DNA from: an uncultured Pelagibacteraceae bacterium
GTDB taxonomy: Bacteria > Pseudomonadota > Alphaproteobacteria > Pelagibacterales > Pelagibacteraceae
Reading direction: 5' to 3'
Assembly: GCA_902632145.1 (NCBI GenBank)
Contig: CACPBH010000004.1
Coordinates: 1-47,667 of the forward strand
Length of the DNA: 47,667 nucleotides
A program made the position numbers and the translations under genes. The notes beneath the pieces are model-generated. The model was not told the DNA's origin. It did not search any database and was given only the letters and a program-made list of their open reading frames with translations. Of this stretch, positions 29,498 through 32,684 are shown in pieces (within the stretch, counting starts at the first letter, position 1; each line of letters starts with the position of its first letter).

Positions 29498-30559
29498 ATG
29501 GGATCAGAATCTATAGAAGCAAGCTTTTTATCAATTTTTGCACTTATAAGTTTTTTTATATTCTTAATTATTAGTAAGTATTCTTTAAGAATTAATAAGG
29601 GAGTATTACTTGACAATAATTTTGTTAAGCCTCAAGCATTTCACAAATATCCCGTAACTAGAAGCGGTGGAATGGGGTCTATAATTTGTCTAATCATATT
29701 TTTCTATTTTTATTATTTGCTCTATGGAAAAATTCTGTACGAATATATCTTAATAAGTTCCTCTATGTTTTTAATTGGGTTTTTAGATGATTTAAAAATA
29801 AATATAAAACCCTCAAAAAGACTTCTTGCTATGGTTTTTTTGCTATTCATACTTATATTTTTTTTACCAATTAAAATATCAAATGTTGATATTCAGTTTT
29901 TAAAATTTTTAATGAATAGCCATTTATTTTCTTCAATTTTCGTGCTTCTATGTTTTTTATTTGTAATAAATGGTGCAAACTTAATTGATGGTTTCAATGG
30001 CTTATTATCAATTAATCTTTTGATTGTAAATGTGGTTCTAGCATACATCAATCTAAATAGCGCTAATCAAGAATTTTCTTTTTTAATAACCGGCCAAATA
30101 ATTATTTTATTAATTTTTTTGTTTTTTAATTTCCCATACTCTAAAATTTTTTTAGGAGACAGCGGGGCATATCTCATGGGTTCTTTAGTAGCTTTAAATA
30201 CAATTATTACAAATAATCTAAATCCAAATATTTCTTCATTTTTCTTTTGTACACTTTTATTTTATATATTTTTCGAGGTATTTTTTTCATTTTTTAGAAA
30301 ATTAGCTCAAAATAAGTCACCCATTTATCCTGATGAACAACATTTACATATGTTGAGTTATTACAAAATTTCATCATTCTATGGTAAAGAAAAAGGCAAT
30401 TTTATTAATTCAATATTTTTAAACCTTATATATCTAATTCTTATTACTCCAGGACTGTATTTTATTGAAAGCCCAAGTTTGAGCAGGTATTGGTTTTTTA
30501 CACTGCTGATACTTTATATGTTAACTTATTCTAGACTTTATCGTTTAACAAAAAATTAA
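29498..30559 (+). CDS. WecA/MraY-type undecaprenyl-phosphate sugar-1-phosphate transferase
   Basis: A 353-residue polytopic membrane protein with about ten helices. Conserved GT4-family cytoplasmic loops are present: RSGGMGS after the first helices, FLIGFLDDLK with the Asp pair, NGANLIDGFNG, FLGDSGAYLMG, and PDEQHLHML, a variant of the His-rich loop. Such enzymes attach a sugar-1-phosphate to undecaprenyl phosphate as the first step of an O-antigen or other surface glycan. It is not MraY, because the sequence is closer to WecA/TagO and there is no mur cluster. The start codon follows the transporter stop with no gap. The sugar substrate cannot be told. Confidence 0.82.
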   Translation: MGSESIEASFLSIFALISFFIFLIISKYSLRINKGVLLDNNFVKPQAFHKYPVTRSGGMGSIICLIIFFYFYYLLYGKILYEYILISSSMFLIGFLDDLKINIKPSKRLLAMVFLLFILIFFLPIKISNVDIQFLKFLMNSHLFSSIFVLLCFLFVINGANLIDGFNGLLSINLLIVNVVLAYINLNSANQEFSFLITGQIIILLIFLFFNFPYSKIFLGDSGAYLMGSLVALNTIITNNLNPNISSFFFCTLLFYIFFEVFFSFFRKLAQNKSPIYPDEQHLHMLSYYKISSFYGKEKGNFINSIFLNLIYLILITPGLYFIESPSLSRYWFFTLLILYMLTYSRLYRLTKN

Positions 30560-30585
30560 ATTGTTATATAAAGCAACGGCAAAAC

Positions 30586-30670
30586 GGGCAAGTGGCGGAA
30601 TTGGTATACGCGCTGGTCTTAGAAACCAGTGCCGCAAGGCTTAAGAGTTCGAGTCTCTTCTTGCCCACCA
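30586..30670 (+). tRNA. tRNA-Leu (anticodon UAG)
   Basis: The acceptor stem GGGCAAG pairs with CTTGCCC at 30660-30666, and ACCA follows, so the CCA end is encoded. The D-loop region is GCGGAATTGGTATACGC. The anticodon stem CTGGT/ACCAG holds the loop CTTAGAA with anticodon TAG, which reads CUA/CUN leucine codons. A long variable arm (TGCCGCAAGGCTTA) and the T-arm GAGTTCGAGTCTC confirm a class II tRNA-Leu. It lies 26 bases after the WecA-like gene and only six bases before the tig start. Confidence 0.97.
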
Positions 30671-30676
30671 AAAATT

Positions 30677-32050
30677 ATGAAGATTGAAACAAAATCAAAA
30701 AAAGGCTTAAGTACGATATTATCTGTTGTAGTTGATAAAAAAACAATTCAATTAAAAATGGATGAAAGACTTTCTGAATTACAAAAAGAAGTGGCTCTAA
30801 AAGGGTTTAGACCAGGAAAAGTTCCATCCTCAGTAATTAAGAGCCAATTCGGTAAATCTATTTATGGAGAGGTAATTGATAAAGTTTTAAGAGAAACTTC
30901 CACTAAAGCCATTTCGGAAAAAAAATTAAAAATTGCAGGACAGCCCAAAATTGATTTGAAACAATTTGGCGAGGGCAAAGATTTAAACTATGAATTACAA
31001 ATAGATTGTTTGCCGAATATAAAGTTGAGCCCTTTAGAAAAATTTAAAGCAAACCAGCATAAAATTAAGATAGAAAAAAAAATTATTGAAGATAAACTTA
31101 AAGAAATTGCTGAACAGAATAAAAAATTTGAAGATAAAAAAGATAATGAAAGATCAATAGTTGGAGATCAATTAACTTTTAATTATTTTGCGTCTATAGA
31201 TAACAAAAAATTTGAGGGAAATGAGGGAAAAGATGTTCAAATAGAATTAGGTAAGAATTTATTTTTGAAAGGTTTTGACGAGCAACTTATAGGCGTTAAA
31301 AAAGGAGAAACAAGATTAGTCGATGCAATTTTACCTGCTAATCATCCTAAAAAAGAATTAGCAAATAAAAAAGCTAAATTTAAATGTGAAATTTTAAAGA
31401 TTAAAAAACCTATTGAAAATAAAATAAACGATGAATTTGCAAAAAGTATGGGGGCAAAAGACATCACAGATCTTAAAAATTTAATTGAGAAGCAAATCTC
31501 TAGTCAATATACTCAAGCTTTTAGTTCAATTACAAAAAAAGAAATTCTTGATCAAATTGAAAAAAATCATGAGATAGATTTACCACAGAATTTGATTGAT
31601 CAAGAGTTAAGTTTAATGACTAGAAGTTTAAAAGAGGAGGAAAAACAAAAATTTTTATCGAATAATACAAAAATTGCAAAATCAAGAATAAAATTAGGAT
31701 TAATTTTAAACGAACTAGGAGAAAAGAATAATTTAAAAATTACTGATGAGGATGTGCAAGCAGAAATTCAAAAACAAATTAAAGGTATGCCAGGCCAAGA
31801 AAAATTGGTAATAGATTATTATCAGAAAAATCCAAGTGCTTCTCAAAGTTTAAAAGGATCATTATATGAGGAAAAAATTATCGATTTTATTAAATCAAAG
31901 ATCAAACTTAATATTATAGAGGTAGACACGAAAGAAGCTGAAAAAATTATATCTGATTTCAACAAACCAAATATAGATAAGAGTCAAACATCAAAAACTA
32001 GATCTTCTAATAAAGAAAAAGTCAAAACAAAAAAAATTAGTAAAAAGTAA
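30677..32050 (+). CDS. tig: Trigger factor, ribosome-associated chaperone
   Basis: A 457-residue protein starting at the ATG at 30677. The frame is open upstream through the tRNA to a GTG at 30629, but that extension is tRNA sequence. The N-terminal ribosome-binding domain carries the GFRPGKVP signature (FRxGxxP). A PPIase-like FKBP domain lies around 150-240 (VGDQLTFNYFA, FLKGFDEQLIGVKKGE), followed by the helical C-terminal chaperone domain. A tail of about 25 Lys/Ser/Asn-rich residues extends past the usual end. It folds nascent chains at the ribosome exit. tig-clpP-clpX-lon is the common order. There is no room for a Shine-Dalgarno sequence outside the tRNA. Confidence 0.95.
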   Translation: MKIETKSKKGLSTILSVVVDKKTIQLKMDERLSELQKEVALKGFRPGKVPSSVIKSQFGKSIYGEVIDKVLRETSTKAISEKKLKIAGQPKIDLKQFGEGKDLNYELQIDCLPNIKLSPLEKFKANQHKIKIEKKIIEDKLKEIAEQNKKFEDKKDNERSIVGDQLTFNYFASIDNKKFEGNEGKDVQIELGKNLFLKGFDEQLIGVKKGETRLVDAILPANHPKKELANKKAKFKCEILKIKKPIENKINDEFAKSMGAKDITDLKNLIEKQISSQYTQAFSSITKKEILDQIEKNHEIDLPQNLIDQELSLMTRSLKEEEKQKFLSNNTKIAKSRIKLGLILNELGEKNNLKITDEDVQAEIQKQIKGMPGQEKLVIDYYQKNPSASQSLKGSLYEEKIIDFIKSKIKLNIIEVDTKEAEKIISDFNKPNIDKSQTSKTRSSNKEKVKTKKISKK

Positions 32051-32072
32051 CCAATAGCTGTATAAATCAATC

Positions 32073-32684
32073 ATGATTCGCGATTTTGATGAAAAAATGA
32101 ATAATCTAATTCCAATGGTTGTTGAGCAAACCAGTAAGGGTGAAAGAGCCTATGATATTTATTCTAGACTTTTAAAAGAAAGAATAGTTTTTTTAGTAGG
32201 ACCTGTAAATGATACTGTTGCCTCTTTAGTTACAGCTCAACTGCTTTTTTTGGAGTCTGAAAATCCAAAAAAAGAAATAAATTTTTATATTAATAGTCCA
32301 GGAGGGTTAGTCACAGCTGGATTAGGAATTTATGACACAATGCAATATATTAATTCTCCGGTTTCCACTCTATGTATAGGCCAAGCATCCTCAATGGGCT
32401 CATTTCTTTTATCTGCAGGCGAAAAAGGTAAAAGATATTCCCTACCAAACTCTAGAATTATGGTTCATCAACCTTCCGCTGGTTTTCAAGGCCAAGCAAC
32501 CGATATTCAAATTCACGCAAAAGAAATTTTATCTTTAAAAGAAAGATTAAATAAAATTTATTCTAAACACACTGGTAAATCTGTGAATGAAATTTCTGAT
32601 GCTCTTGAAAGAGACAACTTTATGACCGCAGAAGAGGCAAAAAAATTTGGTTTAATAGACTCTGTTGTGGAAAAAAGAGGCTAA
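32073..32684 (+). CDS. clpP: ATP-dependent Clp protease proteolytic subunit
   Basis: A 203-residue serine protease. The catalytic triad is Ser107 (GQASSMGS), His132 (IMVHQP) and Asp181 (ERDNFM). [25 protein letters not shown] is the conserved N-terminal axial region, and INSPGG forms the oxyanion strand. It forms the tetradecameric chamber that works with ClpX, encoded next. It starts 22 bases after tig and precedes clpX by 79 bases. A short propeptide of about 10-14 residues may be removed. Confidence 0.97.

Follow-up and report, generated by a model that had tools for sequence, protein, structure and literature searches.

Bacterial transcripts in which a tRNA and an mRNA are carried together include the tRNA-tufB and metY-nusA co-transcripts of E. 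coli, and secG-leuU is a further bacterial example. Leaderless messages form a second point of reference, and these are defined in the available part of one study as having a leader of under 10 nt (PMC4681348). The SAR11 bacteria, some of the ocean's most abundant and with very little regulatory DNA, are hosts to pelagiphages that integrate in tRNA-Leu(TAG), with a replacement tRNA-Leu and the trigger factor gene at the flank, as described in the accessible text of PMC6811365. The tRNA-Leu(TAG)/tig locus is therefore already published as a pelagiphage integration site; an effect on tig expression was not found in print. A search of the open-licence literature likewise found neither work on tig expression from the tRNA-Leu junction nor transcription start maps for SAR11, and the available portions of PMC9004378, PMC8163748 and PMC3848588 contain nothing bearing on the tRNA-tig junction.

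The window analysed here is a stretch of 47,667 nucleotides from an uncultured member of the Pelagibacteraceae, the source genome of which (560 kb, partial) is 55% complete. The region around tig comprises the following features.

29498 to 30559, plus strand: glycosyltransferase family 4 gene (PF00953), the upstream neighbour (ORF list, Pfam)
30565 to 30571, plus strand: TATATAA, 21 bases before the tRNA, candidate -10 element of a promoter for tRNA-Leu and tig (conservation)
30586 to 30670, plus strand: tRNA-Leu, anticodon UAG, with CCA encoded at 30668 to 30670 (ARAGORN, RF00005, sequence)
30671 to 30676, plus strand: spacer AAAATT, predicted to be the tRNA 3' processing site and the entire leader of a processed tig mRNA (sequence, family conservation)
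30677 to 32050, plus strand: tig, trigger factor, 457 aa (Trigger_N, FKBP_C and Trigger_C; TIGR00115)

The initial annotation had placed the encoded 3' end of the tRNA at 30670 and the tig ATG at 30677, with six bases between them, and on this the sequence, ARAGORN (TAG anticodon, 30586-30670, plus strand) and Rfam (an RF00005 match of 61.1 bits) agree. The junction reads ...CTTGCCC ACCA AAAATT ATG. The upstream gap is also as first described, with 26 bases separating the stop of the glycosyltransferase ORF at 30559 from the tRNA start at 30586. The trigger factor itself shares 73% and 64% identity with the proteins of two uncultured Pelagibacteraceae and 51% with four further records, including Ca. 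Pelagibacter ubique SCGC AAA795-F16, among six matching loci in all, which places the window in SAR11.

The brevity of the spacer depends on the start codon, for which the initial annotation had allowed a position further downstream. Were the true start located there, the leader would be longer, an option that is scarcely credible: the Pfam Trigger_N alignment covers the product (named trigger factor by NCBIfam TIGR00115) from residue 1, and the same start is retained in 87/87 family genomes, with MK at the matching position in 86 and MR in one. The start at 30677 thus holds; nothing was found in favour of a downstream start, which was rejected. The window's ORF list also includes an in-frame GTG at 30629, within tRNA-Leu; because Trigger_N aligns from residue 1 and the N-termini are kept, this tRNA-internal codon is not a likely start and was rejected.

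The short junction recurs throughout the order. A sample of 147 genomes yielded a tig match in 130 (none in 17), of which 89 belong to the family of the window and 41 to a sister family. The 5' side of tig was read in 87 of the 89 family genomes, G078 and G082 being left out as their match has no start, and in 21 of the 41 from the sister family. The nearest upstream tRNA is tRNA-Leu(TAG) in all 108 genomes read (87 and 21, respectively), counting G106, where it is a phage-borne copy. Within the family the tRNA-tig spacer is 4-16 nt in 84/87 genomes, with a median of 10 nt among those 84, and the exceptions are one prophage insertion (G106) and two scar-like cases (G072 and G125). Sister-family spacers span 4-21 nt in 21/21 genomes, measured to the most upstream in-frame ATG, and 4 nt is the shortest spacer at any of the 108 loci. 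Because a spacer of 4-16 nt recurs in 84/87 family genomes, the tRNA-Leu/tig junction is not a chance arrangement. The spacer is AU-rich, with a GC content of 0% in the window's genus (g1) and 5.6% in genus g3. In genera g1, g3 and g6, T occupies position -1 in 53 of 54 distinct short spacers and position -2 in 47 of them, figures that are inflated by relatedness, and WTT directly precedes the ATG in 71 of 78 rows from these genera, as compared with TT before the start in only 8 of 42 window genes.

The pairing of tRNA-Leu(UAG) with tig is itself old and widely kept across the Alphaproteobacteria. Outside the order, 106 genomes drawn from the class had a tig match (108 when G000 and G001 are counted) and 69 were read (29 best-scoring loci plus 40 picked by hand, a set biased to small or well-assembled genomes); in 59 of the 69, tRNA-Leu(TAG) lies upstream of tig on the same strand, at a median distance of 64 nt (range 7-584), with gaps of 16 nt or less in 2/59. 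Beyond the class, 24 of 43 non-alphaproteobacterial genomes of the phylum with tig were read (among loci L325-L353). The last tRNA before tig is tRNA-Leu(TAG) in 10 of these, at 24-149 nt, and in several it closes a (Pro-)Arg-His-(Lys-)Leu cluster; Pro, Arg or His tRNAs without Leu precede tig in 3/24, and in 11/24 there is no upstream tRNA on the tig strand. Since the pairing occurs in Alphaproteobacteria outside the order and in some genomes outside the class, it probably predates the Alphaproteobacteria, and the shortening of the gap probably took place in SAR11.

The initial annotation had proposed that a promoter upstream of the tRNA serves both genes, and comparison makes this probable. 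TATATAA lies 18-25 nt upstream of the tRNA in 10/10 genomes of the window's genus (the prophage-bearing G106 left out), and in genus g3 TTGGACA followed by TATAA precedes the tRNA in 69/69 genomes, representing 53 distinct upstream sequences; in 58 of these genomes TTGGACA begins 42 or 43 nt ahead of the tRNA. A clear TTGGACA (-35) box was not found in the window's genus, and the sister family is without it but has another conserved block upstream of the tRNA. Support for the promoter comes from conservation and not from a match to consensus, because a generic sigma-70 scan of 30400-32200 reports no promoter upstream of the tRNA, leaving the TATATAA element unreported, and its promoter-like sites are in no excess over shuffled sequence (9 versus 8.4). 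The tRNA and tig are co-oriented and adjacent, with a 6-nt spacer and no terminator-like or promoter-like site between them; the scans of 30400-32200 turned up no terminator-like site at all and, on the plus strand, nothing promoter-like from the tRNA to the ATG. Spacers as short as these leave too little room for other signals, and co-transcription of tRNA-Leu and tig is very likely on these comparative grounds. Alternatively, tig could have a promoter of its own within the tRNA gene or within the gene before it, in which case its leader would be of the ordinary kind and include the tRNA in whole or in part. A TATACG string in the D-arm of the tRNA (30605-30610) might serve in this way, and sequence alone is no proof against internal promoters. 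Such a promoter is nonetheless improbable: the generic scan found no plus-strand promoter-like site from 30400 to the ATG, the recurrent promoter-like element sits directly upstream of the tRNA, and the need for a working tRNA limits which sequences its gene can have.

At the other end of tig, the extension of the transcript into clpP that had been proposed at first is doubtful. Two further features are relevant here.

32060 to 32065, plus strand: GTATAA, a conserved box in the spacer 32051 to 32072 and candidate -10 element of a clpP promoter distinct from that of tig
32073 to 32684, plus strand: clpP (ORF list; TIGR00493)

The sequence TTGTATAA is found at a fixed 7 nt past the tig stop in 27 of the 30 genomes read, and the remaining three are the window and G090, with CTGTATAA, and G024, with TTGTATGA. 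To judge from this pattern clpP probably has its own promoter, and it is because a conserved promoter-like box precedes clpP that a joint tig-clpP message is called into question.

How translation of tig would begin was also considered. The initial annotation had noted that any Shine-Dalgarno (SD) sequence would have to lie within the tRNA, and the window has none for tig: no SD-like motif is present in the spacer AAAATT, an SD hidden in the 3' half of the tRNA was sought there and not found, the start codon is ATG, and Met begins the protein in 87/87 family genes. This does not set tig apart. With the first ATG of every ORF taken as the gene start, an SD-like motif was found ahead of 6 of 42 window genes (2 of 42 in a control stretch), 13 of 63 genes near the tRNAs of G003 (control 5) and, in G001, 12 of 58 (control 8), and lack of an SD is usual in the window genome. 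The prophage stretches of G106 have such motifs before 14 of 26 genes (control 1). Genera g2 and g5 carry an AAGGA or GAGG-type SD-like motif within the tRNA-tig spacer in 4/4 genomes, as against AAGG in one (G119) of 78 short g1, g3 and g6 spacers; a loss of the motif in the line of g1, g3 and g6 is therefore suggested by these sequences. The 16S 3' end with its anti-SD was found in four loci of the large alphaproteobacterium G174 and in no SAR11 locus, the flanks of which may not reach it. In the minimum-energy fold the 3' part of the tRNA pairs to form the acceptor stem, and both spacer and AUG remain single-stranded.

The machinery for tRNA 3' end formation is relevant to the fate of such a transcript. 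CCA is encoded in every tRNA examined in three SAR11 genomes (G000 16/16, G003 30/30, G001 30/30). The consensus for RNase E sites is RN/WUU, and RNWTT, corresponding to that consensus, ends at position -1 in 59 of 78 spacer rows; the T at -1 and the WTT before the ATG are compatible with an RNase E site. RNase E/G is present in 14/14 genomes. RNase Z gave no match above the curated cut-off in these 14, with a weak partial match in 12; the 14 include G174, a control alphaproteobacterium that is likewise below the cut-off. The available text of PMC3985628 describes E. coli RNase E as entering tRNA precursors via neighbouring single-stranded segments.

The account that we prefer, with moderate confidence, brings these observations together as a single transcription unit. 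A promoter directly upstream of the tRNA would drive tRNA-Leu(UAG) and tig, and, since 4-16 nt of spacer is too short for a terminator or a second promoter, transcription would continue past the tRNA into tig. RNase P would make the 5' end of the tRNA, RNase E/G would cut in the AU-rich single-stranded spacer, and 3' trimming to the encoded CCA would free the tRNA, leaving the 5' end of the tig mRNA 0-6 bases before the AUG. The resulting near-leaderless message, lacking an SD, would be initiated in an SD-independent or leaderless-type manner, and the arrangement would have arisen when genome streamlining in SAR11 shortened an ancient tRNA-Leu(UAG)-tig neighbourhood. Comparison among genomes supports the conserved synteny, the short spacer, the putative promoter element upstream and the lack of room for other signals, whereas we infer where the cut falls, which enzyme makes it, where the tig mRNA begins and how its translation is initiated. 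A leader of about six bases after processing is predicted from the anatomy of the locus, and a processed, near-leaderless tig mRNA is the most economical prediction and not a result; the 30S subunit might instead initiate on the uncut tRNA-tig precursor.

Streamlining might also account for the locus by itself. The two genes would be co-transcribed and the gap short, the junction would have no regulatory or processing role, and the 30S subunit would use precursor or processed RNA alike. This is rather less probable than the processing account, although it draws on general properties of these genomes: their genes are SD-poor, the median intergenic length published for P. ubique is 3 nt (PMC2704228, in its available portion), and short tRNA-to-ATG gaps are common in SAR11. 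The last point derives from a count of ATG ORFs that are 70 codons or longer and follow a tRNA on the same strand by no more than 400 nt, a gap of 12 nt or less being scored as short. Short gaps made up 5/12 in G000 (16 of 16 tRNAs), 7/20 in G003 (best-scoring 30 of 33) and 10/17 in G001 (30 of 32), as against 0/15 in G256 (30 of 40) and 2/24 in G174 (30 of 49), two other Alphaproteobacteria. The pooled figures are 22/49 for SAR11 and 2/39 for the controls (Fisher p = 2e-5), which differ from SAR11 in GC content and size; G174, with GC-rich DNA and partly spurious ORFs, is a weak control for gaps, and G256 was added. Streamlining alone leaves unexplained why position -1 is almost always T and why WTT precedes the ATG, although TT there may reflect a generic start context or shared ancestry. 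It also fails to explain why spacers are at least 4 nt at 108 loci, an argument weakened by gaps of 1-3 nt after other SAR11 tRNAs. Streamlining is best regarded as the route by which the arrangement originated and not as a competing cause, and as such it is compatible with processing of the tRNA-tig transcript.

Natural variants of the locus indicate what tig may tolerate. The tRNA-Leu of G106 is interrupted by a prophage of about 37 kb, which leaves nucleotides 1-39 at the far side and 25-85 beside tig, located as follows.

C1:250181-250241 and 287289-287327: the two pieces of the G106 tRNA (the insertion as a whole is seen in L090:639-2099 and L091)

The prophage brings a complete tRNA-Leu(TAG), located beside its integrase and 164 nt upstream of tig. 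Its gene content fits a T7-like, pelagiphage-type element, with five proteins matching phage integrase, terminase, single-subunit RNA polymerase (phrog_414), major head protein and DNA polymerase, and the integrase shares 30-38% identity with its counterparts in pelagiphages Gjalp, Eyrgjafa, HTVC025P, HTVC011P and HTVC041P. The tRNA-Leu of phage Eyrgjafa is noted as a possible integration site in the available part of PMC8163748, and the G106 insertion is of an already known kind (PMC6811365). In G072 (L016) and G125 (L067), tig lies 115-116 nt past a divergent tRNA-Leu(TAG), behind the native promoter-like element, and in G125 GACCTACCA persists 9 nt before the tig ATG, resembling a former tRNA 3' end; both look like tRNA replacement after a past integration. 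Because the gaps from an intact tRNA are 115-164 nt in G072, G125 and G106, these genomes suggest that tig can do without the junction, which would then not be strictly essential. Pelagiphage integration in tRNA-Leu separates tig from the host promoter and provides a natural experiment on the coupling of the two genes.

Several other SAR11 tRNAs have genes at comparable distances. The tRNA-His is followed after 4-5 nt by hisS, the gene for its own synthetase, in G000 (L145, NCBIfam) and G001 (L247, Pfam), and tRNA-Gln is followed after 3-6 nt by a gene of the PolyA_pol/tRNA-nucleotidyltransferase family in G003 (L180) and G001 (L255), both by Pfam. A NAD kinase gene (NCBIfam) follows tRNA-Leu(UAA) at a short junction in G000. 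An ATG ORF with a similar N-terminus begins 1-4 nt after tRNA-Leu(CAA) in G000 (L158), G003 (L183) and G001 (L264); in G000 it encodes an AMP-binding enzyme, and in G001 the gap of 1 nt is the shortest seen between a tRNA and an ATG. A wider tRNA punctuation in SAR11, in which the 5' ends of a set of housekeeping mRNAs, several of them with a role in translation (tig, hisS, nucleotidyltransferase-like and NAD kinase), would be set by tRNA 3' processing and the messages would be leaderless, their supply following tRNA transcription and maturation, is a tentative proposal that we hold to be possible though on balance doubtful. If the coupling at tig is real, a ribosome-associated chaperone would be tied to tRNA supply with no extra regulatory sequence, and the processing account offers a testable explanation of how translation starts in SAR11 on messages without an SD.

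The locus can be set beside systems already described. The pelagiphage integration site is the same tRNA-Leu(TAG)/tig locus, and the accessible text of PMC6811365 describes the integration site without tig expression or the short spacer. A six-base tig leader would qualify as leaderless alongside primary leaderless mRNAs, as treated in the available part of PMC4681348, but in those the 5' end is a transcription start at or near the start codon, whereas for tig it is predicted to come from tRNA processing. With the bacterial tRNA-mRNA co-transcripts the likeness lies in a tRNA and an mRNA on one transcript, parted by tRNA-processing enzymes. In the E. coli cases the mRNA keeps a leader and SD of its own, whereas in SAR11 the tRNA ends 4-16 nt from the AUG. 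Mitochondrial tRNA punctuation is similar in that excision of a tRNA would set where an mRNA with little or no leader begins. It differs in that SAR11 is a bacterium, the 3' enzyme is probably RNase E and not RNase Z, cleavage is predicted, and only some mRNAs are involved: a SAR11 genome has only some 30 tRNAs (33 matches in G003), which would bound few mRNAs by comparison with punctuation of the mitochondrial type. If the processing account is true, the tRNA-Leu/tig junction would be a bacterial parallel of mitochondrial tRNA punctuation.
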